Source: Burkholderiales bacterium | GTDB taxonomy: Bacteria > Pseudomonadota > Gammaproteobacteria > Burkholderiales > Burkholderiaceae_C | Assembly (NCBI GenBank): GCA_017307855.1 | Contig: JAFKGD010000001.1 | Span: 310,001-374,000, forward strand | DNA: 64,000 nucleotides | Direction of reading: 5' to 3' | Shown: piece by piece, positions 49,160-64,000 of the stretch | Position numbering within the stretch: position 1 is the first letter of the stretch | Layout of the letters: every line of letters begins with the position of its first letter | Made by a program: the position numbers and the translations under genes | The notes under the pieces: generated by a model | What the model saw: only the letters and a program-made list of their open reading frames with translations | What the model was told of the DNA's origin: nothing | Database searches by the model: none

Positions 49160-50212
49160 TCAGATGCGAAGGCGCTGGCCGCTGCGGATGTGCTGCAGCA
49201 GGCGCGGCGCGATCTCGTGCAGCGGCAGCACCTGATCTACCCCGCCGGCCGCCACGGCCTCGCGAGGCATGCCGTACACCACGCAGGTGTCCTCGTTCTG
49301 GGCGTAGGTCCTGGCTCCGGCCTGGTGCATCGCCGCCATGCCGGCCGCGCCATCGCGCCCCATGCCGGTCAGGATCACGCCGGCCGCATTGGCGCCGGCC
49401 AATTGCGCGGCGGAATGGAAGAGCACGTCCACCGACGGGCGGTGGCGGTTGACGGGCTCGGCATCCGACAGGGCCGTCACGTAGTTGGAGCCGTCACGGC
49501 GCAGCAGGAGATGCGAATGCCCCGGCGCGACGAACGCATGCCCTGGCAGGATGCGCTCGCCGCCGGCGGCTTCGCGCACGGTGAGCGCGCAGGAGCGGTC
49601 CAGCCGGGCCGCGAACGAGGGCGTGAATTGCGCCGGCATGTGCTGCACGATCAGGATCCCGGGGCTGTCCGGCGGCATGCCCGCGAGCAGTTCCCGTATC
49701 GCCTCGGTGCCGCCGGTCGAGGCGCCCACGACGATCAGCTTCTCGCTGGAGACGAACGCCGGCCCGCCCAGGCGGGGTGCGGGGCGCGGGACGCTGCTGC
49801 GCACGCCCACCCGCGCGGCCGCCGCGGCGCGCAGCCGCGCGCAGATGTCCGCTGCGTAATCGCGCATGCCGTTCTCGATACCCAGCCGCGGCTTGGTGAC
49901 GAAATCGACGGCCCCGAGTTCGAGGGCGCGCAGCGTGAGCTCACCGCCTCGCTCGGTCAGGCTGGAGACCATCAGCACGGGCATCGGCCGGGTGCGCATG
50001 AGCGACTCCAGGAAGTCCAGCCCGTTCATCACCGGCATCTCGACATCCAGCGTCAGGACATGGGGCCGCAGCGCCTCGATCTTCTCGAGCGCATGGACCG
50101 GGTTGGGCGCGGTGCCGACGACTTCCATGTCGTGCTGCGCGCCGATGATCTCGGTGAGTACCTTGCGGATCAGCGCCGAATCGTCCACCACCAGTACGCG
50201 GATCCTGTTCAT
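49160..50212 (-). CDS. cheB: Chemotaxis methylesterase/deamidase CheB
   Basis: 350 residues. Receiver domain ([14 protein letters not shown], phospho-Asp56 in [12 protein letters not shown]) followed by the methylesterase domain with catalytic Ser in [12 protein letters not shown], His in [10 protein letters not shown] and Asp in [11 protein letters not shown]. Removes receptor methyl esters when phosphorylated by CheA. Overlaps cheD by 4 bp. Last che gene of the operon proper. Confidence 0.97.
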
Positions 50213-50823
50213 GGTCCCTCCTGGAACAGCTCGACGGTGCCGGCGATCGGCGTCGCGACCAGCTGGCGGCGATAGCTGGATTCATGGCTGAGCCACTGGC
50301 GCGGCGTCTCTCCCGCCAGCCGCCTCACGCGGGCCTCGCCGGTCCGGGGAAAGTACGCGACCTTGCGGGCGCAGGTGTCCTCCAGGTCGCGCGCCAGCAG
50401 CGGAATGCCTTCGCGGGCCAGGAACTCCAGCACGAACTGCGCGTTGCGCCGCCCGATGCCGGCCTGCGTCATGCCCGCGACCACGTTGGCTCCGCCGAAG
50501 ACCTTGGCCTCCAGCCGGTCGCGCCGCGCGCCGTTCTTGACCAGCTGGTTGATCAGCACCTCCATCGCATAGGCGCCGTAGCGGGCCGGCTCGGAGGCGA
50601 AGGCGTCGTCGCCGGCCTCGGGCAGCATGAAGTGGTTCATGCCACCGATGCCGGAGTGCCGGTCGCGGATGCAGGCGGCCACGCAGGAGCCGAGCACGGT
50701 CACCAGCACCTTGTCTTCGCCGGTGATGTGATAGTGGCCCGGCAGAACCTTGATCGCGGGCTTTCCGAACACCGGATCGAAGTAGGCATTGCCGGATGGC
50801 GATTGCACGAGACCGGTCGTCAT
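50209..50823 (-). CDS. cheD: Chemoreceptor glutamine deamidase CheD
   Basis: 204 residues. Catalytic Cys47 in [14 protein letters not shown] and His64 in GGMNHFMLP, 17 residues apart as in Thermotoga CheD (Cys27, His44). It converts receptor Gln to Glu and, in CheC-containing species, is bound by CheC. The operon also encodes a CheX/CheC-like protein, which fits that pairing. ATGA overlaps with cheR upstream and cheB downstream. Confidence 0.96.
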
Positions 50824-51671
50824 GCCGCCCTCCCCGCCGCGCCCGGCACGGGCTGATACACGGTATGGCCGCGCAGCCGGAAGATGTCGGCCGCCTGGAA
50901 GAAGGTCTCCGAATGCCCGGCGAACAGCAGGCCGTCCGGATGCAGCAGCGGCACGAAGCGCCGCAGCACCTGCAGTTGCGTGGCCTTGTCGAAATAGATC
51001 ATCACGTTGCGGCAGAAGATCACGTCGAACGGACGCAGGTCGGGCCACTGCGGCGCCAGCAGGTTCAACGGGCCGAACCGCACCAGGGCCGCCACCTCCG
51101 GCCTCACCCGGACCTTGCCCGCGGCGGCGCCCGTACCCCGCAGGAAGAACTGCCGCAGCCGGCTTTCTTCGAGGTGTTCGACCCGGCTGGCGTCATACAC
51201 GCCGGCGCGGGCGGTGGCCAGGACTTCGGTGTCCAGGTCGGTCGCCACGATGTGCGCGGCGGGCGTGCCGGCGCCGGCGGCTTCCATGAGCGTGATGGCG
51301 ATCGAATACGGCTCCTCGCCGGTGGAAGCCGCGCAGCACCACACCCGCAGCGGCCGGTCGCGCCACACCCGGCGCGCGTGCTCGGCCAGGATCGGGAAGT
51401 GATGTGCCTCGCGGAAGAACGACGTCAGGTTGGTCGTCAGGGCGTTGGTGAAGGGCTCCCACTCGGCGCTGGCCGGGTCGTCCAGCTCGGCCAGATAGCG
51501 GCTGAAACTGTTCATGCCGCGCTCGCGCAGCCGGCGCGACAGGCGGCTGTACACCATCTCCTGCTTGCTGGACGCCAGGGCAATGCCCGCCCGGCCACGG
51601 ATGAGCTCGCGCACCCGCCCGAAGTCGGCCAGCGTGAACTCGAACTCGCGCGTGGCGGCGGCGGATGTCAT
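50820..51671 (-). CDS. cheR: Chemotaxis receptor methyltransferase CheR
   Basis: 283 residues. Methylates receptor glutamates with SAM. N-terminal helical domain (DFGRVRELIRGRAGIAL) and the SAM site in VWCCAASTGEEPYSIA, then VATDLDTEVLATAR and VIFCRNVMIYFD. The MCP with a DWESF tail in the same operon would recruit it through its beta-subdomain. Overlaps cheD. Confidence 0.96.
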   Translation of the reverse strand: MTSAAATREFEFTLADFGRVRELIRGRAGIALASSKQEMVYSRLSRRLRERGMNSFSRYLAELDDPASAEWEPFTNALTTNLTSFFREAHHFPILAEHARRVWRDRPLRVWCCAASTGEEPYSIAITLMEAAGAGTPAAHIVATDLDTEVLATARAGVYDASRVEHLEESRLRQFFLRGTGAAAGKVRVRPEVAALVRFGPLNLLAPQWPDLRPFDVIFCRNVMIYFDKATQLQVLRRFVPLLHPDGLLFAGHSETFFQAADIFRLRGHTVYQPVPGAAGRAA

Positions 51672-51673
51672 GT

Positions 51674-52162
51674 TCAGGCCGCCTCGATGCCGGCGACCAG
51701 GGCATCGACATCCAGCAGGATCAGCATGCGATCGCCCTGCATGCCCAGGCCGGTGATGCAGCTGGCATCGATGGCAGCCATCTCCGGACCCGGCCGGACC
51801 TGGGAGGCCGGCAGCGTCACGACGTCCGAGACACCATCGACCACGATGCCGATCACGCGGGTGCCGACATTGACGATGATGTGCACGGAGGTGCCCTCGC
51901 CTTCGGCGGTCGGCAGGCCGAAGCGCACCCGCAGGTCCATCACCGGCACGATGATGCCGCGCAGGTTGATGACGCCCCTGACGTGGGCCGGCGCGTTGGC
52001 GATGCGCGTGACGGGTTCGCGTCCACGGATCTCCTGGACTTTCAGGATGTCGATCCCGTAGTGCTCGCCGCCCAGGCGGAAGGTCAGGAGCTCCTGGCCC
52101 GCCTCGGAGGCCTCGGACAGGGCCGCGGCGGCGGACATTTCTGGAAGGGCCATTGCATTCAT
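51674..52162 (-). CDS. cheW: CheW coupling protein
   Basis: 162 residues. Links CheA to receptors. LLTFRLGGEHYGIDILKVQEIRG and RGIIVPVMDLRVRFGLP are the two SH3-like subdomain marks. An extra N-terminal stretch of about 20 residues is Ala/Ser-rich. Preceded by an AACGAGGAA ribosome site; cheR starts 2 bp after its stop. Confidence 0.96.
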   Translation of the reverse strand: MNAMALPEMSAAAALSEASEAGQELLTFRLGGEHYGIDILKVQEIRGREPVTRIANAPAHVRGVINLRGIIVPVMDLRVRFGLPTAEGEGTSVHIIVNVGTRVIGIVVDGVSDVVTLPASQVRPGPEMAAIDASCITGLGMQGDRMLILLDVDALVAGIEAA

Positions 52163-52188: not shown

Positions 52189-54006
52189 TCAGGCCACGCA
52201 CTCGCGGGCCGTCGGAGACAGGGCCATGTCGCACAGCTCGGCGGGGTCGAGGATGAGCGCCACGCGCCCATCGCCCAGGATGGTTGCGCCCGACACGCCC
52301 TGGACCTTGCGCCAGTTGGCCTCCAGGCTCTTGATCACCACCTGGTGCTGGCCGCACAGCGCGTCGACCAGCAGCGCGAACTGGCGCTTGCCGGCATCGA
52401 CGATGACCAGGATGCCGTCCTCTTCCTGGTGCCGTGCGCCCTCGATGCCGAACAGCTCATGCAGCGCCACCACGGGCAGGTATTGGCCACGCACCTGCAC
52501 CACGCGGCCGCGGCCGGTGACCGACTTCACGCCACCGGCAGCCGGGCGCACGGACTCGACGATGCCCGACAGGGGCAGGATGAACATCTCCTGGCCGACG
52601 GTGACGGAGAGCCCGTCGAGGATGGCGAGGGTCAGCGGCAGGCGCACGGCAATGCGCGTTCCCTGGCCCGGCGCGCTGTGGATTTCCACGCGCCCGCCCA
52701 GCGCGGCGATGTTGCTGCGCACGACGTCCATGCCGACGCCCCGGCCCGACACGTCCGTCACGGCCTCGGCGGTGGAGAAGCCCGGCTCGAAGATCAGGTT
52801 CCAGACCTGGCTGTCGGTGGGGTTCTCCGGCACGCCCATGCCGCGCTCGAGGGCCTTGTCCAGGATGCGGCTGCGAGAGAGTCCCCGGCCGTCGTCGGCC
52901 ACCTCGATCACGATGTCGCCGCCCTGGTGCGAGGCCGACAGGGAGATCGTGCCGGCCGCCGGCTTGCCGCAGGCGATGCGCTCGGCGGCGGATTCGATGC
53001 CGTGGTCCAGGCTGTTGCGCACCAGGTGCGTGAGGGGATCGACGATCTTCTCGATCAGGCCCTTGTCCAGCTCGGTGTGCTCGCCGCTCATGCGCAGATC
53101 GACCGACTTGCCCAGCCGGGCCGCGAGGTCGCGGACGACGCGGGGGAAGCGGTTGAAGACGGCCGAGATCGGCATCATGCGGATCGCCATGGCGGCCTCC
53201 TGCAGGTCGCGCGTGTTGCGGTCGAGCTGGGCCAGCGCCGACGAGAGCCGCTCGCCCAGGCGCACGTCGCCGCCGCCAGCGGTCTGCGCCAGCATGGCCT
53301 GGGTGATGACCAGTTCGCCCACCAGGTTGATCAGCTGGTCGACCTTCTCCACGCTCACGCGGATCGAGCTGTGCTCGGACGCAATGGGCGCGGAAGGCGC
53401 CGAACCGGCTGCCGCACTGGCGACAGTGGCAACGGCCGCCGGCGGCACATCGCCGGCCGCCGCGGCGCACTGCTGCACGGGCGCTGCAGCCGGCGCAGGC
53501 GCAGCGGCAGGCACGCCGGCAGACGCAGGCAGGTCGTCGAAGAATCCGAAAGCCGTCCCTTCGCCCTTGGCAGGCGCGCGGGCTTCGGCCGGTGCCGGTG
53601 GCGTGGCCGGCGCCTGTGCGTCGCCGGCCAGTTCGGCCAGGCGACGGCACAGGCGCTCGCCTTCCGCTGCGCCCGCCTGGTCCGGCTCTTCGCGCGCGGC
53701 GATCAGGCTGCCGATGTGATCGGTGGCCTGCAGCAGCGCATCCACCATCGGCGTGGTCAGCGACAGCTGCCGGTTGCGCAGCCGGTCCAGCAACGATTCG
53801 AGCACGTGCGCCACGCTGGTGACCGACGACAGGCCGAAGGTGGCCGAGCCGCCCTTGATCGAATGCGCGGCACGGAAGATGTCGTTGAAGTCGGCGGGCG
53901 TGGCGTGCGCCACGTCCAGGGCCAGCAGGCGCGCTTCCATGGCGGCCAGGTGCTCCTGGGCCTCTTCGACGAAGATCGCCAGGAATTCGCTCATGTCCAG
54001 ATTCAT
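52189..54006 (-). CDS. cheA: Chemotaxis histidine kinase CheA
   Basis: 605 residues. P1 HPt with phospho-acceptor His48 in RAAHSIKGGSATFG, a low-complexity Pro/Ala linker (about 150-220, no clear P2), P3 dimerisation helices, P4 kinase (HLVRNSLDHGIESA; EVADDGRGLSRSRI; GRGVGMDVV) and a CheW-like P5. The ATG at 54006 is preferred over the GTG at 54009 because GGAGG is better spaced. It phosphorylates CheY and CheB. Confidence 0.96.
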   Translation of the reverse strand: MNLDMSEFLAIFVEEAQEHLAAMEARLLALDVAHATPADFNDIFRAAHSIKGGSATFGLSSVTSVAHVLESLLDRLRNRQLSLTTPMVDALLQATDHIGSLIAAREEPDQAGAAEGERLCRRLAELAGDAQAPATPPAPAEARAPAKGEGTAFGFFDDLPASAGVPAAAPAPAAAPVQQCAAAAGDVPPAAVATVASAAAGSAPSAPIASEHSSIRVSVEKVDQLINLVGELVITQAMLAQTAGGGDVRLGERLSSALAQLDRNTRDLQEAAMAIRMMPISAVFNRFPRVVRDLAARLGKSVDLRMSGEHTELDKGLIEKIVDPLTHLVRNSLDHGIESAAERIACGKPAAGTISLSASHQGGDIVIEVADDGRGLSRSRILDKALERGMGVPENPTDSQVWNLIFEPGFSTAEAVTDVSGRGVGMDVVRSNIAALGGRVEIHSAPGQGTRIAVRLPLTLAILDGLSVTVGQEMFILPLSGIVESVRPAAGGVKSVTGRGRVVQVRGQYLPVVALHELFGIEGARHQEEDGILVIVDAGKRQFALLVDALCGQHQVVIKSLEANWRKVQGVSGATILGDGRVALILDPAELCDMALSPTARECVA

Positions 54007-54043
54007 CACGTCCTCCGGTGCGCCGATCGCTTCGCCTCGGCGG

Positions 54044-54409
54044 TCAGGCCAGCACGCGGCCGATGACCGAGAGCAGCATCTGCGGATCGAACGGCTTGAC
54101 CATCCAGCCGGTGAGGCCGGCCGCGCGGCCGGCCTGTTTCATCTCGGCACTCGACTCGGTGGTGAGCATCAGGATGGGCGCGCTGCGGTAGTTGTCCAGC
54201 GCGCGCAATTCACGCGTCAGCGTCAAGCCGTCCATGTTGGGCATGTTCTGGTCGGTGATGACGAGGTCCACCTGCGCGCTGGAGGCCTTGCTGAGCCCGT
54301 CGACGCCGTCGACGGCCTCGATCACGTCGTAGCCGCCCATGCGCAGGGTCGTGGCGACCATCTGGCGGATGGAGGTGGAGTCGTCAACGGTAAGTACGGT
54401 CTTGGTCAT
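54044..54409 (-). CDS. cheY: CheY-like response regulator (second copy)
   Basis: 121 residues. TVDDSTSIRQMV, phospho-Asp in LVITDQNMPNMDG, Thr in MLTTESS and Lys in WMVKPFDP, the conserved tyrosine/tryptophan region is W in LTGWMVK. Placed between the MCP and cheA, it is the kind of CheY typical of operons with an alternative motility or non-flagellar output, but could equally be the flagellar one. The other CheY of the operon begins it at 57407. Confidence 0.93.
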   Translation of the reverse strand: MTKTVLTVDDSTSIRQMVATTLRMGGYDVIEAVDGVDGLSKASSAQVDLVITDQNMPNMDGLTLTRELRALDNYRSAPILMLTTESSAEMKQAGRAAGLTGWMVKPFDPQMLLSVIGRVLA

Positions 54410-54426: not shown

Positions 54427-56133
54427 TCAGAAGCTTTCCCAATCGGCGTCGGCCCCGGCGGCGGCCAGCGCGGGACGCGCCATGGCGCGGGCTCCGGGCG
54501 TGGTGGGCTTCTGTGCGGCGGGCAGCTTCCTGGCGGGTCGGGCAGCGGCCACGGCGGCCGGAGCCATCGTGGCAAGCGGCTGGACGTCGGCCTGCGAACC
54601 GGTGCGGAAGACCGCGACCGAGCGGACCAGCTGATCGGCCTTGCTGCGCAGGATGTCTGCTGCCGCGGCGGATTCCTCCACCAGCGCGGCGTTCTGCTGC
54701 GTCGCCTGATCCATCTGCGTGACGGCCTGGCCGACCTGCGCGACGCCATCGCTCTGTTCGCGGCTGGCTGCGCTGATCTCGCCCATGATGTCGGTCACGC
54801 GGCGCACGGCCTCGACGATCTCGGCCATGGTGCGGCCAGCCTGGTCGACCAGGCTGGTGCCCTGCTCCACCCGCTCGACGCTGGCGCCGATCAGCCCCTT
54901 GATTTCCTTGGCGGCGTCGGCGCTGCGCTGGGCGAGCGAGCGGACCTCGCTGGCCACCACCGCGAAGCCGCGGCCCTGCTCGCCTGCGCGGGCCGCCTCC
55001 ACCGCCGCGTTGAGCGCCAGGATGTTGGTCTGGAACGCGATGCCGTCGATCACGCCGATGATGTCCGAGATCTTCTGCGAGCTGTCGTTGATGTCCTTCA
55101 TGGTCTCGACCACGCGGCCGACCACGTCGCCGCCATTGACCGCCACCGACGAGGCCCGCATGGCCAGCTGGTTCGCCTGCTGGGCGTTCTCGGCGTTTTG
55201 CCGCACCGTGGAGTTGAGCTCTTCCATCGATGCCGCGGTTTCCTCCAGCGCCGAGGCCTGCTGCTCGGTGCGGCCGGACAGTTCGTTGTTGCCGCTGGCG
55301 ATCTGCCCGCTGGCCGAGGCGACGCTGTCCGCGTTGCGCCGCACTTCGTCGACCAGGCCAGCCAGTGTCTCGCGCATGGTGGCCAGGGCGCGCAGCAGCG
55401 TGGCCACTTCGTCGCGGCCATCGGCCGTGATCGCCGACGTGAGATCGCCGGCGGTGATTGCCTCGGCCGCGCGGACCGCCCGGCCGAGCGGCACGGTGAT
55501 GGAACGCGTGGCCAGGTAAGCCAGCAGCGCACCCAGGACCACCGCGAGCAGGCCACCCAGGCCCATCAGCCACTGGCTGCGGTGCGCGTCCGAGAGGGTC
55601 TGGCCGGCCTCGACGTCGCTCGCGCGGACCATGCCGTCGATGGCTGTGGACAAGGCGGAGAGATAGGTTTCGGCGCGCGGCGCGAGATCGCGGTCGATGG
55701 CGGCGGTCACGTCCTGCCCGGCAAGCTTGGCCTTGACGATCTCGCCGCGGCGCAGCGTGTAGGCCTCGCGCGCCGCCGTGACCTTCTCGAGCAGCACCCT
55801 GAGTTCGGCCTCGGTGACCAGGCCATCGAGTGTCTTGAGCATGCTGCCGACGTCGGCGCTGGTCTTCTCGATGTCCTTCTGCAACGATGCCACGTAGGCG
55901 GCATCGTTGCTGTGCAGCAGGGCCTGCGTGCGGACGTAGTTCAGCCGGATCTCGGCCGCCCACTCGCGGGCCATGACCTCGCGCTTCTGCACCACGGCGC
56001 GCTGGGTTTCGAATTCGCCGGCCAGCAGGCCCAGGCGCTGCATCCCCAGCAGGGCAACAAGCCCCGTCACCGCGACGAGCAGGCCGAAAGCGATGGCCAG
56101 GCGGCCGCCTATCTTGAGTTGAGTGAGTTTCAC
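54427..56133 (-). CDS. Methyl-accepting chemotaxis protein with C-terminal DWESF peptide
   Basis: 568 residues. TM1 (about 10-30), helical periplasmic 4HB-type sensor (about 35-190), TM2 (about 193-213), HAMP and signalling domain with the tip [11 protein letters not shown]. It ends ...ADADWESF; the E. coli receptors Tsr and Tar end NWETF, which binds CheR and CheB. So it likely is a high-abundance-type receptor able to help methylate others. A Pro/Ala linker precedes the pentapeptide. Start is GTG with AAGGGGA upstream; the open frame further upstream is not used. Confidence 0.94.
54905..55062. repeat. MCP signalling-tip DNA repeat, copy 2
   Basis: 158 bp matching 47862-48019 except at two bases; see copy 1. 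Synonymous positions are conserved as well, which is unusual for divergent paralogues. Confidence 0.9.
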
Positions 56134-56149: not shown

Positions 56150-56563
56150 TCAGAAAAATTCAAGATCGCCCACCACCACCGGCGCCAGCGCCACCGGCCG
56201 GCGGCAACGGGCCAGGGCGGCGAGCGCCCGTGCGGCAGACGCGAGTTCATCGTCGAGCCCGCCCGGTGGAACCCGGCCCGGCGCCAGCCCATGGCCCACC
56301 GCCAGCAGCACATTCACCCGATAGCGCGCGTGATCGAGCATCTGGCCTGCGATGTCTTCCGACTGCAGGGCCACGATGGCACCCTCGACATGGCGCTGGC
56401 GATGCGGGTTCTCGGGGTCGGCCAGCACGAGCAGGTGCTCGCGCAGGCCGTCGCGGGCCAGTGAGAGGCGATGGCGGGCGGCATCGATCTCGCGCTCCAC
56501 GGCGTCGAGTTGCTGCAGCACGCCCTGGAACACCTCGTGCAGGCCGGAGTTGACGGGCTCCAT
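56150..56563 (-). CDS. Small CheZ-like candidate phosphatase
   Basis: 137 residues, mostly helical, no homologue recognised by name. Residues 62-78 ([17 protein letters not shown]) resemble the CheZ active-site helix (AQDFQDLTGQ): Asp70 and Gln74 take the places of the catalytic Asp143 and Gln147 of E. coli CheZ, which lie four residues apart. The C terminus is VVVGDLEFF, an acidic-aromatic end recalling the CheY-binding tail of CheZ (DDLLDSLGF). Much shorter than CheZ (214 residues). It sits between the CheX-like gene (13 bp) and the MCP (16 bp). A phosphatase role is an inference from the motif and the context. Confidence 0.65.
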
Positions 56564-56576
56564 GGTCGTGCTCCGT

Positions 56577-57041
56577 TCAGGACGCCAGACGCAGGGCCAG
56601 CCAGCCCTGGCCGTAGCCATCGATGTCGATACGCAGCGCGGTCGCCTCGCCCTGCAACAGCTCGGGCGTGCAGGACTGCGGCGGCAGGTGCATTTCGCGC
56701 AGCGTGACGCGGGCGCCGTCGCGCGCCAGGAAGAGGCGCGAGGCGACGTTGAGCACCTCGCCGAAGGTCTCGCGCAGGTTGTCGTCCAGAGTCCTGGAGC
56801 GCACCGCCTCTTCGGCCGCCTCGGCGGGAATCAGCGCGAAGGCCGCAGCCGCTCGCCCAGCGAAGCCGATGTCGGCCAGGCAGACGCCCAACAAGGCGCC
56901 GTCACTGCCACGGTAGGCGCCGGCAAACTGCAGCGTGCCCTTGGGGGGGCTGCCGGCGACCGCTTCCACTTTGCGGCGCAGCAGTCGCGTGAGTTGCGCG
57001 CCGACCTGCGTGGCGTTGGGCAATTGGAGTGCGCTGCTCAT
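56577..57041 (-). CDS. CheX/CheC-like candidate CheY phosphatase
   Basis: 154 residues, the length of Thermotoga CheX. One catalytic-type motif: ETFGEVLNVASRLF has Glu95 and Asn98, and Pro121 comes 23 residues after Asn98, matching the family pattern [DS]-x3-E-x2-N-x22-P; only the first position is Glu91 and not Asp/Ser. Strands around GVCLADIGFAGRAAAAF support a CheC-like fold. CheX and CheC dephosphorylate CheY-P. Its place after cheY (3-bp gap) and in an operon with cheD fits. Confidence 0.72.
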   Translation of the reverse strand: MSSALQLPNATQVGAQLTRLLRRKVEAVAGSPPKGTLQFAGAYRGSDGALLGVCLADIGFAGRAAAAFALIPAEAAEEAVRSRTLDDNLRETFGEVLNVASRLFLARDGARVTLREMHLPPQSCTPELLQGEATALRIDIDGYGQGWLALRLAS

Positions 57042-57044
57042 GGC

Positions 57045-57407
57045 TCAGCCCAGGTAGTGGTCCAGCGCGTCGCGGAAGTCGTCCGAAGTGAACGGCTTGC
57101 CGATCAGGAAGGCCGCGCCGTGCACCATCGCTTCGTCGCGCATCTCGGGGCTGACTTCGGTGGTCACGAATCCGAAGGTGGTCGCGCGGCCGTTCTCGCG
57201 CAACTCGCGCAGGAACTCGATGCCCGTCTTGGAGGGCATGTTCCAGTCCGAGAGGATGAGATCGGGGGACTCGTTGAGCGTTGCCGTCAGTGCCTGGCTG
57301 CCGTCGGCGGCCTCGATGATCTGGTGGCCCCGGTAGCCTGCCTCGCGCAGCATGTGCGCGATCACCTGGCGCATCACCCGGCTGTCATCTGCAATCAGGA
57401 TCTTCAT
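57045..57407 (-). CDS. cheY: CheY-like response regulator (first gene of the che operon)
   Basis: 120 residues. ILIADDSRVMRQVIAHML, phospho-Asp in LILSDWNMPSKTG (the DWNMP form of E. coli CheY), Thr in FVTTEVS and Lys in FLIGKPFTS. First gene of the operon, upstream DNA with direct repeats and an inverted repeat. It is the likely substrate of the phosphatase candidates next to it. Confidence 0.94.
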   Translation of the reverse strand: MKILIADDSRVMRQVIAHMLREAGYRGHQIIEAADGSQALTATLNESPDLILSDWNMPSKTGIEFLRELRENGRATTFGFVTTEVSPEMRDEAMVHGAAFLIGKPFTSDDFRDALDHYLG

Positions 57408-57445: not shown

Positions 57446-57490
57446 AAAACGATTTAACACAGGAAATTGTGTCAATTTTAACGATTTAAC
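57446..57490. promoter_or_regulatory. Direct repeats and inverted repeat upstream of the che operon
   Basis: AACGATTTAAC occurs at 57448-57458 and at 57480-57490, 32 bp apart (three helical turns). Between them lies TTAACACA-ggaaat-TGTGTCAA (57454-57475), an inverted repeat with one mismatch. AT-rich DNA in a GC-rich genome; likely a regulator site. A related TTAATGATTTAA is at 59277-59288 near the kinase start. Confidence 0.55.
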
Positions 57491-59267
57491 CGATTGAATC
57501 TCGGTACGGCGTCTGGCGCGCCGTCGCCGCCTGGGGCGACAGGGGAAGGAAGAGGCTGACCTGGGTTCCCAACCCCTCTTCCGAGGCGATCGTGATCGTT
57601 CCGCCCATCAGCTCCATCAGCTCCCTGGACAGCGCCAGCCCCAGTCCGGAGCCGCGGTCCTCCAACTGCTCCGACGGTTCGCCGATCGTGTTGAAGCGGT
57701 CGAACACCCGGGGCAGCATGGCTTCGGGAATGCCCACGCCCGTATCCACCACGCTGATCACGAACATGTCGTGCTGGAATGCGCCGGCCACGAAGATGCC
57801 GCCGGCCTGCGTGAACTTGATTGCGTTGTGCAGGACGTTGTTGAGCACCTGGACGAACTTGGTGCGGTCGGTACGCACCTCGACCAGGTTCTGCGGCGGC
57901 AGCGTGAGCGACAGGGCCAGCTTCTTCTTGTCGGCGCTGACGCGGTGCACGTCGACGATGGCGCCCAGCAGTTCGCGCATTTCCACGGTTTCGATGGCGA
58001 CCTCCATGCGGCCGGCCTCGATCTTGGCCAGGTCGAGGATCGTGCTCACCAGCGCATGCAGGTGCTTGCCGCTCTTGTGGATCAGGTCCGCATACTTGAA
58101 GACGACGGCGTCGTGCACGACCTCCCGGATGAGTTCGGAGAAGCCGAGGATGGAGTTCAGCGGCGTGCGCAGTTCGTGGGAGACGGACGCCAGGAAGTTG
58201 GACTTCATCTGGTTCGCCTCCAGCGCCTTGGCGCGGCTTTCGCGCAACTGGCGGATCAGCCGCCGCTGCTCGTTGCCCAGCCGGGCAATCGTGAACGCCA
58301 GCGCGGTCAGCACGAGGGTGATGACCATGGCCAGCATCAGTGCGTAGCGCAGGGTCGTATCGAAGACCGACGCCAGCGTGGGGTAGGCATAGCCGACGAG
58401 CACCGTCAGCGGATAGCTGCCCACGTGCTGGAAGGCATAAAGCCGGTCGAGCCCGTCCACCGCGCTGGGCGCGTGGTACATGCCGCCGCCGCCGCCCTGG
58501 AGCTGCTTCCATGAGGGGCTGCCGGAGATGTCCTGGCCCCAGCTGATCTCGTCGCCGCGCATGCGCAGGCGATGGACGCCGTCGTCGCCGACGATGGCCA
58601 CCACGCTGCCGGCCACGAGCCCGTCGTAGTTGTGGAAGTAGCGCTGCAGCACGGTCGGATCGATGCTGCCGACGATCGCACCCTGGAAGCGCCCGCCCTC
58701 CCCGAGGATCGGACGCACCAGCTGCACGGACACGCGCCCGGAAACGCGGCCGACCACGGTCTGGCCGATGAACAGGCGGTCGCGCGGATCTTGCGCCACC
58801 GCGCGGAAGTGCGGCCGGTCGGCGATGGACACCGGGGCCGAGCCGCTCAACGGCAGCGTGCTGGCCACGATGGTGCCTTGCGCATCGGCGATGGCGACCT
58901 GCTGCAGCGCAGGACCGAGTTCGCCGAGCTCGGCCGCCAACCTGGCCTGCGACGGCAGGCCGCCCGACGCCCGGTAGTCCACCTGGAGCTGGCCGAGCAG
59001 GCGGTCGATGACGAACACATTCAGCCCAACGTATTCCGCGAAGCCGCGGGCGTTGAGTTCGGCCTTGCTGCTCAGATCCTGCTGGTTCTGGCGGAATTCG
59101 CCATAAACCATGCTGCTCAGCGTGCCCCAGAGAAGCAGCAGGAAGATGGCATGGGTGCCCCAGATCAGCCGGCTCACGCCGGCGCGGGACACGATCAGCC
59201 AGAGGCGGTCGAGCAGCTTGCGCCCTGTAGGCGGCAAAGCTCTGATGAAGGCAATGTTGTGCGACAT
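57486..59267 (-). CDS. Cache-type membrane histidine kinase
   Basis: 593 residues. TM1 (about 36-56), a periplasmic dCache/PDC-like domain (about 60-300: ADRPHFRAVAQDPRDRLFIGQ is the Cache ligand signature), TM2 (about 308-330), HisKA with His364 in FLASVSHELRTPLNSI and HATPase_c (VLNNVLHNAIKFTQAGG; DRGSGLGLALSRELM). No receiver of its own. It is upstream of the che operon on the same strand with a 78-bp gap. The ligand domain suggests small organic acids or amino acids. The first cheY or another receiver could be its partner. Confidence 0.93.
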   Translation of the reverse strand: MSHNIAFIRALPPTGRKLLDRLWLIVSRAGVSRLIWGTHAIFLLLLWGTLSSMVYGEFRQNQQDLSSKAELNARGFAEYVGLNVFVIDRLLGQLQVDYRASGGLPSQARLAAELGELGPALQQVAIADAQGTIVASTLPLSGSAPVSIADRPHFRAVAQDPRDRLFIGQTVVGRVSGRVSVQLVRPILGEGGRFQGAIVGSIDPTVLQRYFHNYDGLVAGSVVAIVGDDGVHRLRMRGDEISWGQDISGSPSWKQLQGGGGGMYHAPSAVDGLDRLYAFQHVGSYPLTVLVGYAYPTLASVFDTTLRYALMLAMVITLVLTALAFTIARLGNEQRRLIRQLRESRAKALEANQMKSNFLASVSHELRTPLNSILGFSELIREVVHDAVVFKYADLIHKSGKHLHALVSTILDLAKIEAGRMEVAIETVEMRELLGAIVDVHRVSADKKKLALSLTLPPQNLVEVRTDRTKFVQVLNNVLHNAIKFTQAGGIFVAGAFQHDMFVISVVDTGVGIPEAMLPRVFDRFNTIGEPSEQLEDRGSGLGLALSRELMELMGGTITIASEEGLGTQVSLFLPLSPQAATARQTPYRDSIG

Positions 59268-61513: not shown

Positions 61514-62719
61514 TCAGCCCTGTGCCTCGATCGGCAGCCAGACGCTGAAGGTCGCGCCCTTGCCCGGCTCGCTGCGCAGCGTGAGCGAGCCTCCGTGCGC
61601 CTGCACGACCTCCCGCGCGATGTACAGGCCCAGGCCCATGCCGGGCGGGCCGTCGTGCCCCACCGCGCGCTCGAACTGGCCGAAGACGCGCTCCTGGTGC
61701 ATGGGTGCGATGCCCGGCCCCTGGTCGCGGACGTCGATACGGGCGCCGGCCTTTCCGTCAGGGCCTGCTGCCAGCGTCGCGCGGATGGTGATGGGCGAGC
61801 CTGGCGCGTGGCGCAAGGCGTTGGAGATCAGATTCGCGAACACCTGCTCGATGCGGAATTCGTCCCATTGCCCCACCAGGTCGGCCGGCAGGCCGAGCGC
61901 GAACGACACACCCGCCTCACTGGCCTGGTGCGAGAGCGAATCCACCGCGCGCTCGACCAGCGGCTTGAGTTGCACGCGACCCGTACGCAGCACCAGCCGC
62001 GAGCCGCGCAGGCGCGACACGTCGATCATGTCGTCGATGAGGCGCACCATGCTCTGGATCTGCCGCTCTTCGCGCTGCACCATGGCTTCCATGTTGCGCG
62101 GCGAGAGCGCCTCCGCGTCGCCGCGGCCCAGGTGCACGCGGCGCATCTGCACCTCCAGGAACAGCGTGTGCAGCGGCGTGCGCAACTCGTGCGAGACGGC
62201 CGAGACGAAATCGTCGCGCATGCGCACGGCGCGCTCGAGGTCGGCCTGGGCCTCGCGCAGCCGCTTGACCAGCTCGTCCTGTTCGCGCCGTGCCTCGCGC
62301 AGCGCCTCCAGCTGCACACGCACGGCGCGCTTCTGGCGCCACAGGTCGACGAAAACGCTGACCTTGCCCTGCACGGCCTGGATGTCCAGCGGCTTGTGCA
62401 GGAAATCGACCGCGCCGCTCTCGTAGCCCTGGAAGGAATACTTCAGATCTTCGCTGGCCGCCGTCACGAAGATGATCGGAATGTGCCGCGTTCGCTCGGT
62501 GCCGCGCATGAGCTCGGCGAGCTCGAAGCCGTTCATGGTCGGCATCTGCACGTCGAGGATCGCCAGCGCGAACTCGTGCTCCAGCAGCAGGGCCAGCGCC
62601 GCTTCGCCCGATTGCGCCTGGTGGATGGTTCGGCCATCGCCACGAATCAGCGCTTCCAGCGCCAGCAGGTTTTCGGGCAGGTCGTCGACGATCAGGATGT
62701 TGGCAGGCGTGTCAGGCAT
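61514..62719 (-). CDS. Receiver-histidine kinase protein
   Basis: 401 residues: receiver (ILIVDDLPENLLALEALI, Asp in LAILDVQMPTMNGFE, Thr in FVTAASED, Lys in LHKPLDI), coiled-coil (about 125-165), HisKA with His177 in SAVSHELRTPLHTL and HATPase_c (NLISNALRHAPG; GMGLGLYIAREVVQ). Cytoplasmic. It overlaps the catalytic CheB gene by 8 bp. Together with the CheR and CheB genes it resembles the CheB-CheR-kinase signalling proteins of other bacteria split into three genes. Confidence 0.92.
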   Translation of the reverse strand: MPDTPANILIVDDLPENLLALEALIRGDGRTIHQAQSGEAALALLLEHEFALAILDVQMPTMNGFELAELMRGTERTRHIPIIFVTAASEDLKYSFQGYESGAVDFLHKPLDIQAVQGKVSVFVDLWRQKRAVRVQLEALREARREQDELVKRLREAQADLERAVRMRDDFVSAVSHELRTPLHTLFLEVQMRRVHLGRGDAEALSPRNMEAMVQREERQIQSMVRLIDDMIDVSRLRGSRLVLRTGRVQLKPLVERAVDSLSHQASEAGVSFALGLPADLVGQWDEFRIEQVFANLISNALRHAPGSPITIRATLAAGPDGKAGARIDVRDQGPGIAPMHQERVFGQFERAVGHDGPPGMGLGLYIAREVVQAHGGSLTLRSEPGKGATFSVWLPIEAQG

Positions 62720-63332
62720 GTCGGCGTTCCAGGTCTTGCAGCAGTTGGTGGATCTCGGCCAGCGTGAACTGGGCGTGGGATGGGTGCAGCCGCAGTGCGG
62801 CCTCGGGCATGGTGGACACGCGCGCTTCTGCGGGCGCCTGTACCGCGGTGAGCCCGCCGGCCCGCGCGGCCGCGCGCAGGCCCTCGGCGCCGTCCTCGTT
62901 CGCCCCGGTGAGCAGCAGCGCCGCCAGGCCCGAGCCCCAGGCGTCGGCGGCCGATGTGAACAGGAGGTCGATCGAAGGTCGCGAGTGGTTCACTGCCGGA
63001 TCGCAGGACAGCGAAAAGCTGTGATCCTGTTCGACCAGCAGGTGATAGCCCGGCGGTGCGAAGTACACGGTGCCGCAACTCACCGGCTCCTTGTCGCGCG
63101 CCTCGCGCACATCCAGCGCCATGTGGTGCTGGAACACTTCGGCCAGCACGCTCTCGCGGTCGTCGGGCAGGTGCAGCACCACCACGATGGGCAGGCGGTA
63201 GCCGGCGCGCAGGCCCGGCAGCAGAGCCAGCAGCGCCTCGACGCCGCCGGCCGAGGCGCCGATGCAGATGGCCTGCACGGGCGGATCGCGGCGGGCCAGG
63301 AGGCTGGTGGCGGTCAACGTGGCCGTCGTCAT
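62712..63332 (-). CDS. Catalytic-only CheB (methylesterase domain without receiver)
   Basis: 206 residues. Methylesterase catalytic residues: Ser in CIGASAGGVEALL, His in VVVLHLPDDRESVL and Asp in LTGANEDGAEGL. The receiver domain normally at the N terminus is missing; start at 63332 opens the catalytic domain directly. It would therefore not be controlled by phosphorylation in the usual way. ATGA overlap with cheR upstream and 8-bp overlap with the receiver-kinase downstream. Confidence 0.9.
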   Translation of the reverse strand: MTTATLTATSLLARRDPPVQAICIGASAGGVEALLALLPGLRAGYRLPIVVVLHLPDDRESVLAEVFQHHMALDVREARDKEPVSCGTVYFAPPGYHLLVEQDHSFSLSCDPAVNHSRPSIDLLFTSAADAWGSGLAALLLTGANEDGAEGLRAAARAGGLTAVQAPAEARVSTMPEAALRLHPSHAQFTLAEIHQLLQDLERRHA

Positions 63333-64000
63333 TCGGCCACCTTGCGGTAGATGCGCTCGCGGCGGTTCACGGTCTCGAAACCCTCGGCATGGCGCGAGAA
63401 CTCGATGCTCTCCTTGCTGCCCAGTCCCAGGAACCCGCGGTGGCACAGCGATTCGTGGAACAGGCCGAGCGCCCGGTCCTGCAGGCCCCGGTTGAAGTAG
63501 ATGAGCACGTTGCGGCACGAGACCAGGTGGGTCTCGGAAAAGACGCTGTCCGTGGCCAGGCTGTGGTCGGCGAAAGTGACGTTGGCGCACAGCGAACGCT
63601 CGAACAGCGCATTGCCATACGCCGCCGTGTAGTAGTCGGAAAACGCCGCCGTGCCGCCGGCCTTCTGGTAGTTGGCCGTGTACTGCCGCATCGCGTCGAT
63701 CGGGAAGATGCCCTCGCGCGCCTTGGCCAGGGACACCGGGTTGATGTCGGTGGCATAGATGAAGGCGCGCTCGGCCAGGCCCTCCTCGCGAAGCAGGATG
63801 GCCAGCGAGTAGACCTCTTCGCCTGTGCTGCAGCCGGCCACCCAGATGCGCACCGAGGGGTAGGTGCGCAGCACCGGGACCACGTGCTGGCGCAGCGCCA
63901 GGAAGTACGCCGGATCGCGGAACATCTCGCTCACCGGGATCGTCATGTACTGCAGCAGCTGCGCGAATGCCTCGCGGTCGTGCAGGATGCGCTCCTGCAG
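63329..64000 (-). CDS. CheR-type methyltransferase, N terminus beyond the window
   Basis: The frame stays open to the right edge, so 223 residues with the stop at 63329 are seen. VRIWVAGCSTGEEVYSLAIL binds SAM, IYATDINPVSLAKARE and LVSCRNVLIYFN complete the domain. N-terminal residues before MTIPVSEMFRD (LQERILHDREAFAQLLQY, in parts) fit the CheR N-terminal domain. Paired with a receiver-less CheB. Distinct from the operon cheR at 50820-51671. Confidence 0.92.
   Translation of the reverse strand: MQERILHDREAFAQLLQYMTIPVSEMFRDPAYFLALRQHVVPVLRTYPSVRIWVAGCSTGEEVYSLAILLREEGLAERAFIYATDINPVSLAKAREGIFPIDAMRQYTANYQKAGGTAAFSDYYTAAYGNALFERSLCANVTFADHSLATDSVFSETHLVSCRNVLIYFNRGLQDRALGLFHESLCHRGFLGLGSKESIEFSRHAEGFETVNRRERIYRKVAE

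Follow-up and report, generated by a model that had tools for sequence, protein, structure and literature searches.

A putative free-standing CheZ-type module and a CheX-like protein as candidate CheY-P phosphatases in one Burkholderiales chemotaxis operon

The window analyzed here is a 64,000-nucleotide stretch of a Burkholderiales bacterium genome (GenBank assembly GCA_017307855.1, contig JAFKGD010000001.1, positions 310,001 to 374,000) that holds a chemotaxis operon on its minus strand. We propose, with a probability of about 0.62, that this operon combines two CheY proteins with two unrelated CheY-P phosphatases: a 137-residue protein, P0001, that would be a free-standing, trimmed CheZ-type module most likely serving CheY2, and a 154-residue CheX-like protein, P0002, that would serve CheY1. 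The genes for cheY1, the CheX-like protein, and the P0001-type protein, when consecutive in that order, are referred to as the triad. The original prediction, made from the DNA letters alone, had placed the cheY, 154-residue, and 137-residue genes correctly in coordinates, strand (all minus), and size. The wider and more interesting result than P0001 alone is that a CheZ-like module related to it lies at the end of many chemoreceptors.

Results

P0001 and the C-terminal module of chemoreceptors

Eight P0001-type sequences from different loci were aligned (A5), and only Ala65, Gln67, Asp70, and Gln74 were invariant. At E ≤0.01 the A5 profile matched 66 of the 369 genomes of the class, including that of the window (65 of the 368 others). 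The match list comprised 86 rows, one being the window itself, and 54 of the 85 non-self rows were examined (29, another 20 that were weaker and picked for length, and 5 more); the other 31 include partial and probably chance matches. Most of the better matches lay in frames of ∼400 residues encoding receptors, with the module at the C-terminus behind the methyl-accepting chemotaxis protein (MCP) signaling domain. All 54 examined relatives carried D-x3-Q after [LMF]-Q-[FYS]-x, the receptor module reading L-Q-F-[EQ]-D-x3-Q followed by a tail that ends in LF or FF. This tail end was present in 29 of the 29 loci, for which the choice of frame favored frames holding the motif, and in all 20 weaker relatives. 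Four of the latter, in which LQF is preceded by Y, L, M, or Q, fell outside the strict pattern and were accepted by eye, LQF[EQ]D-x3-Q being present, and 15 of the 20 passed a strict MCP-core pattern. The MCPsignal domain was found in 13 of 13 scanned proteins of ∼400 residues (P0008; L037, L039, L042, L045, and L059; L070-L076, where L073 is the same gene as L044), none of which had a Pfam sensor domain above the cut-off. A che-type neighbor (CheY/receiver, CheA, CheB, CheR, or CheD) was located within ∼1.5 kb at 26 of 30 loci (L002, L037-L065), and the locus DNA examined for L042, L046, L047, and L058 gave no che-type match. Searches of plasmids by tblastn with one receptor and with one receptor module as queries returned nothing.

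When the stand-alone P0001-type sequences were compared with the receptor modules by hhalign, the match was 97.2% with E 2.9e-11 over 99 columns reaching the tail, and the seven controls, reversed or shuffled, had E values of 0.13-0.38. At the level of sequence, homology of P0001 to the receptor C-terminal module is well supported. A combined alignment of 32 rows with 23% mean identity (A7, without the tail-less L009 copy and the near copies L012-L014, L055, L058, L061, and L064) left only Gln67, Asp70, Gln74, and Phe137 invariant. Asp70 and Gln74 are positioned as the original prediction had said, and the lack of conservation that it had named as contrary evidence was not observed, both residues being invariant in 32 of 32 rows. 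The acidic-aromatic C-terminal tail is conserved to its last residue in A7 and is unlike the CheY-binding peptide of CheZ in sequence. Free-standing module proteins of ∼190-230 residues were also found outside the triad (L048:1108-1788, L050:1111-1794, and L043:1498-2073), with a GDVTLF or GEIELF tail and adjoining cheB or cheY; as far as these frames indicate, such detachment is not peculiar to the triad.

The monomer model of P0001 (predicted local distance difference test score (pLDDT) 79) comprises helices 6-47 and 55-90 packed as a hairpin plus a third helix, with Asp70 and Gln74 in the second long helix. A four-helix CheZ-like core had been anticipated; the predicted hairpin is compatible with half of the CheZ bundle, and CheZ was not among the best 50 of 354 Foldseek matches. 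Searches of PDB sequences with P0001 gave only chance matches.

Similarity of the module to CheZ

The link of P0001 to CheZ runs through the receptor C-termini and not through P0001 alone. The receptor modules matched a 13-row CheZ set by hhalign (40%, E 3e-4) better than they matched a coiled-coil control derived from receptors. Independently, the Pfam CheZ model (PF04344) was run over 54 whole genomes and produced, besides the true CheZ genes, ten matches below the cut-off. Seven of these were receptors of ∼400 residues in six genomes (G718 twice, G910, G1009, G915, G800, and G897), with E values per genome of 3e-6 to 2e-4; the remaining three (G751:C10, G990:C2, and G888:C44) lie outside the seven examined. 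All seven receptor matches span [AHS]-x-Q-F-Q-D-x3-Q, and a scan against all of Pfam (L070-L076) identified MCPsignal (E ≤1.5e-22) together with CheZ (E 5e-5 to 6e-4) in seven of seven. A CheY2-type gene, its product 47-51% identical to CheY2 of the window, adjoins six of the seven, and these receptors may form a second receptor-phosphatase subfamily. They end in ...FF or ...LF. An AXXFQ sequence directly before DXXXQ is described as a conserved signature of CheZ (PMC7750401), and in many of the receptor-borne relatives the sequence is A-L-Q-F-Q or A-L-Q-F-E. Similarity to CheZ is thus a weaker link than the homology between P0001 and the receptor C-termini; the Pfam CheZ matches to receptors, as independent evidence, tip the balance toward it.

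Other results weigh against this reading. P0001 had no Pfam match above the cut-off (BMFP and T3SS_needle_E appeared as sub-threshold chance matches) and no NCBIfam match. Direct hhalign comparison of the P0001-type sequences with seven canonical CheZ sequences was not significant (E 0.66), and comparison with the wider 13-row set gave E 0.12; an earlier, smaller set had given 0.018, and we weighed the value from the rebuilt set because the earlier one was without most canonical CheZ sequences. The coiled-coil control scored better than both CheZ sets (E 0.005), and for the receptor modules it gave E 0.002 versus 0.003 for the seven canonical CheZ sequences. The CheZ matches in the seven receptors fall below the curated cut-off, three of them show matches of similar E value to helical families of other kinds over different parts or longer stretches, which calls for caution with such values, all seven are of the Q-F-Q-D subtype, which is not the one nearest P0001, and among five other receptors scanned CheZ appeared in one, at E 0.41. 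P0001 itself reads A-L-Q-S-E, with Ser and Glu at the Phe and Gln of AXXFQ. No CheZ was listed when the A5 and A7 profiles were searched against the PDB, A5 giving chance matches; the designed protein Tako8, found with the A7 profile at E 3.5e-10, was rejected as eight repeats of one 11-residue chance match. A Foldseek search with the P0001 hairpin reached a best E value of 0.25 and placed no CheZ among the best 50 of 354 matches, which were generic helical bundles; simple hairpins are poorly separated, and we take this model-based result as neither supporting nor refuting CheZ likeness. The P0001-type genes evolve faster than their neighbors (by dN/dS, the ratio of nonsynonymous to synonymous substitution rates), and the triad copy of L009 (6462-6782, Pseudacidovorax intermedius NS331) ends early without the acidic-aromatic tail, with D-x3-Q retained. 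Canonical CheZ also occurs in 45 of the 51 receptor-module genomes tested (51 of 65 non-self), as would be the case were the module part of a second system; the CheY that the receptor module serves may therefore be other than the flagellar one.

We advise against assigning P0001 to the CheZ family, because tests with the family model and for the AXXFQ signature were both negative (no PF04344 match at E values up to 10). Even so, we consider a CheZ-like mode of action more probable than not. Its description as a small CheZ-like protein in its own right was not borne out by the direct profile comparison. Two orphan CheZ-type proteins of 181-189 residues were noted among the loci (L030:3665-4210, CheZ E 6.6e-8, and L032:3896-4465). 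They end in DVDSLLKDLMP, their neighbors look metabolic by eye (dihydroxy-acid-dehydratase-like; thioredoxin-domain-like), and no che gene was seen nearby.

The CheX-like protein P0002

No Pfam family was detected in P0002 or in its homologues P0005 and P0007; NCBIfam and PDB sequence searches with P0002 gave only chance matches, and a PDB profile search gave nothing. The AlphaFold2 model built from nine sequences was of high score (pLDDT 88.6, predicted template modeling score 0.86). With this model, Foldseek returned 14 PDB chains at E ≤0.001, all of them FliM or C-ring, FliY, CheC, or CheX, and ranks 1-35 were occupied by FliM or C-ring, FliY, CheC, CheX, or CheC-like proteins, including the Borrelia CheX-CheY complex. 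By prediction, P0002 has the CheC/CheX fold, in agreement with the CheX/CheC-like assignment made earlier, and it may be active as a phosphatase. The catalytic pattern read into it, [DS]-x3-E-x2-N-x22-P, survives in part: Glu95, Asn98, and Pro121 are at the positions named, and Glu95 and Asn98 (E-x2-N) are invariant in eight of eight rows (alignment A6), but residue 91 is Glu in all eight rows rather than Asp or Ser, and Pro121 is not conserved.

Recurrence of the triad

The triad order was found again in L006-L014, which comprise a Comamonadaceae plasmid (L006), a Rubrivivax metagenome-assembled genome (L007), a beta-proteobacterial metagenome-assembled genome (L008), and Pseudacidovorax (L009-L014). 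The CheX-like protein is rare. A search with P0002 matched 3 of 299 genomes of the family, namely the window's own, G200, and one probable chance match; a three-row CheX-like profile matched 2 of 399 genomes of the order (the window's own and G474); one of 72,556 plasmid records held a CheX-like gene; and a pattern-based scan of genome contigs for the CheX-like gene gave nine loci. In L016 (G474), cheY1 and the CheX-like gene are present with no P0001-type gene behind them. Values of dN/dS were ∼0.1 for cheY (three pairs; dS was 0 in a fourth), 0.16-0.27 for cheX (four pairs), and 0.34-0.46 for the P0001-type genes (four pairs), the highest of the triad. The three genes are, on this evidence, real and not chance frames, because their order recurs in L006-L014 and dN/dS is below 1 wherever it could be computed. 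We also rejected an origin of P0001 as a fragment of an MCP broken by a frameshift, as it is a separate gene again in L006-L014. Locus L005 (E 9e-4) was rejected as a probable chance match; by eye, its frame spans unrelated-looking genes and no che gene is present. A CheX-like fragment (L015:12-293, 37% identity in the best segment) was seen on a Bryobacterales contig, taxonomically far from the other loci and shortly before a gene resembling phosphopantetheine adenylyltransferase; it sits at the locus end with no che neighbor in its sequence and was omitted from the counts.

The two CheY proteins

A tree of 27 CheY sequences (FastTree, midpoint root, frames of 105-165 residues, with L006 CheY1, several CheY2, L031, and L040 left out) grouped CheY2 and its triad counterparts with CheYs encoded beside receptor modules (support 0.98). 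The CheX-linked CheYs, CheY1 among them, made up a separate clade (support 0.95) that lay on the same side of the tree as the CheYs adjoining canonical cheZ, and in L007-L011 and L016 the CheX-like gene comes after a CheY1 of 52-73% identity. This linkage suggests that P0001 acts on CheY2 and the CheX-like protein on CheY1; the latter pairing fits L016, which has both partners and lacks P0001.

CheZ, FliM, and CheA in the triad genomes

The whole genome of the window had no PF04344 match at E 0.001, nor did the other eight of the nine triad genomes (six of the nine are Pseudacidovorax; completeness is stated for two only), and 40 of 59 other genomes searched did have one. FliM was present in nine of nine triad genomes. 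Besides the triad CheA, one strong CheA match was found in each of G000 (the window genome), G200, G1054, G1055, and G1056, in frames of 2,050-2,157 residues (2157 in the window genome) that we take to be ChpA-like by size. In G1057 two pieces lie at contig ends (one within a frame of 1,693 residues), G1052 has no other CheA, G1051 has a weak second match (29% identity), and G1053 has two further ones plus a long one; the L009 genome also has two further CheA genes. In view of this CheA inventory, flagellar chemotaxis probably depends on the triad operon in seven of the nine triad genomes, where it is served by no recognized CheZ.

FliM of the window genome (G000:C5, L017:1420-2379) and of three Pseudacidovorax (L083-L085) is without the N-terminal CheY-binding peptide, which we take to be LSQ-x-E-[VI]-D-A-L-L; by contrast, the peptide is present in two further triad genomes, in one FliM of each (L077, L078). 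A connection of peptide loss with the triad was ruled out, since the triad genomes G1051 and G1052 have FliM with the peptide.

Layout of the operon

The operon runs cheY1, P0002, P0001, MCP, cheY2, cheA, cheW, cheR, cheD, cheB, and an MCP-like frame (Table 1) and is classed as an F7-type che cluster by gene order. Gaps of 3 bases (cheY1/P0002) and 13 bases (P0002/P0001) separate the triad genes. For the MCP downstream of P0001, whose C-terminus DWESF is a CheR/CheB-type pentapeptide, we propose the GTG at 56133 as the start. The cheR, cheD, and cheB genes and the last MCP-like frame were assigned by sequence and order, not by Pfam. Upstream of the operon, also on the minus strand, a receiver-histidine kinase hybrid (61514-62719) and frames that look CheB- and CheR-type (62712-63590 and 63329-63946) were noted; 61514-63946 is possibly a second signaling cluster.

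Table 1. Features of the chemotaxis operon and its flank, in window coordinates
Feature	Position	Strand	Basis or remark
Histidine kinase gene	57486-59267		precedes cheY1
cheY1, single-domain response regulator, first triad gene	57045..57407	-	Response_reg E 9.6e-23
P0002, CheX-like, 154 residues, candidate CheY-P phosphatase	56577..57041	-	predicted CheC/CheX fold
P0001, putative CheZ-like stand-alone module, 137 residues	56150..56563	-	predicted helical hairpin; A65-L-Q-S-E-D70-I-A-G-Q74; tail G-D-L-E-F-F
Codons of the P0001 motif A65 to Q74	56342..56371	-	computed from gene start 56563
MCP after P0001	54427..56133	-	MCPsignal E 1.6e-56, HAMP E 1.2e-10 (longer frame)
cheY2	54044..54409	-	groups with CheYs adjoining receptors with the CheZ-like module
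cheA	52189..54009	-	CheW, H-kinase_dim, HATPase_c, Hpt
cheW	51674..52162	-	PF01584 E 3.5e-37
cheR	50820..51671	-	sequence and gene order; annotated cheR at same place in plasmid locus L006
cheD	50209..50823	-	sequence and gene order; annotated cheD in L006
cheB	49160..50212	-	sequence and gene order; annotated homologue in L006

Discussion

In the mechanism that we propose, the two long helices of P0001 would dimerize to form a four-helix bundle in which Gln74 would place the attacking water and Asp70 would grip CheY, as the Asp and Gln do in CheZ; the catalytic pair of the E. coli enzyme is Asp143/Gln147. The acidic-aromatic tail would tether CheY2-P, the likeliest substrate, as CheY2 relatives adjoin receptors with the same module at their C-terminus. 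P0002 would act as a CheC/CheX-fold phosphatase paired with CheY1, and the operon would probably run the flagellum.

Other explanations of the same observations were weighed. P0001 might bind CheY or the array as a non-enzyme (a scaffold, a localizer, or a competitor for CheY-P), with P0002 alone ending the signal. The weak direct similarity to CheZ, the fast evolution of P0001, and the tail-less L009 copy are in line with such a role, as is the presence of a second phosphatase candidate that has a clear predicted fold and occurs in L016 without P0001 beside it, but the Asp/Gln pair that CheZ needs is invariant in 32 rows at 23% identity and a pure binder does not need both residues, and we consider this explanation unlikely. 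It is, we think, quite improbable that the module is a structural coiled coil of the receptor complex, unrelated to CheZ, with D-x3-Q as a helix-packing motif. That idea would account for a module following the MCP signaling domain, for a coiled-coil control with E values as good as or better than those for canonical CheZ, and for the generic helical bundles among the best 50 of 354 Foldseek matches; it sits poorly with matches of the CheZ hidden Markov model in seven receptors over regions containing the module motif, with modules free of a receptor in the triad, L043, L048, and L050, and with a tail conserved to the last residue. A tail that ends in two aromatics after acidic residues, next to an MCP that ends in the DWESF tether, could also be read as a CheR/CheB tether, P0001 then recruiting the adaptation enzymes and being no CheY phosphatase. 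In P0001 the second of the last five residues is Leu, most A7 rows have V, I, or L there rather than an aromatic residue, and McpA with Val at the second tail position showed no interaction with any of four CheR proteins (PMC7184735), which makes this explanation very improbable.

F7 clusters are without cheZ, those of stages 1-2 having cheY, and in stage 1-2 genomes only F6 clusters include cheZ; by stage 3 the mcpA-like gene is lost and the F6 cheY/cheZ pair is kept by all species (PMC7184735). The C-terminus of McpA-like F7 receptors is conserved, with an "important yet unclear biological role," and the aeruginosa McpA-like tail has valine at the second position (PMC7184735). According to PMC7534058, VCA1088 has not been the subject of an experimental report, and in the open-licence literature searched (listings, abstracts, and passages of the papers cited here) we found no phosphatase role for the McpA-like receptor C-terminus. 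Gene order, size, and tail, set against the description only, suggest that the module-bearing receptors are McpA-like F7 receptors. Tentatively, and at odds somewhat short of even, we propose that their C-terminus is a CheZ-type CheY phosphatase, by which the receptor would terminate its own signal, that supplies the missing phosphatase of F7 systems at stages 1-2, and that a few Burkholderiales lost the receptor part, leaving a 137-residue protein beside CheX that replaces the cheY/cheZ pair. The reverse order, with the module fused to receptors later, is possible.

If correct, this would give a function to a strikingly conserved, unexplained receptor C-terminus and would offer F7 systems that have no cheZ a way of terminating their signal. 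It would define a minimal CheZ-type unit below Pfam detection, so that surveys relying on Pfam cut-offs would under-count chemotaxis phosphatases; the consequence for the published restriction of cheZ to F6 clusters at stages 1-2, if any, depends on the CheZ detection used in that work. It would also provide a natural system in which CheX-fold and CheZ-type enzymes may divide two CheYs between them.

Comparison with known systems

P0001 resembles CheZ (PF04344) in the placement of D-x3-Q on the second helix of its predicted hairpin, in being encoded in a cheY operon, in its short C-terminal tail, and in occurring where canonical CheZ is missing. It differs in length (137 versus about 165-250 residues in the CheZ proteins examined), in having no significant direct profile match, and in a tail that ends in DLEFF rather than DDLLxSLGF. 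Small, remote forms of CheZ include that of H. pylori, as cited in PMC9321776 and PMC7750401, and the "new minimal form" of CheZ seen in P0001 by the original prediction is more aptly described as a free-standing copy of a module that receptors carry. P0002 is like the CheC/CheX/FliY family (CheC-like clan) in predicted fold, in its one E-x2-N, and in a gene adjoining cheY; it differs in lying below Pfam detection, in the Glu that replaces Asp/Ser four residues before the catalytic Glu, and in a pattern Pro that its homologues do not conserve.

The premise that species use either CheZ or CheC/CheX is sound as a trend, since most systems do so (PMC10542144), but it has an exception in Campylobacterota, where CheZ and CheX coexist (PMC9321776). 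Coexistence of phosphatase types alone is not new, because both have already been shown there. Those F3 systems have both types in one organism, as here; their genes are scattered and their CheZ is a recognized one, whereas here both candidates follow one cheY in a che operon. The McpA-like F7 receptors (PA0180, VCA1088, SO_2117; PMC7184735, PMC7534058, PMC9855816) are likened to the present ones by description only, and P0001 has no receptor part; the receptors found here are MCPs of ∼400 residues, often encoded beside cheY/cheA or cheB, and many of them end in x-[VI]-x-x-F, in agreement with the valine described for the second position of the McpA-like tail (PMC7184735).

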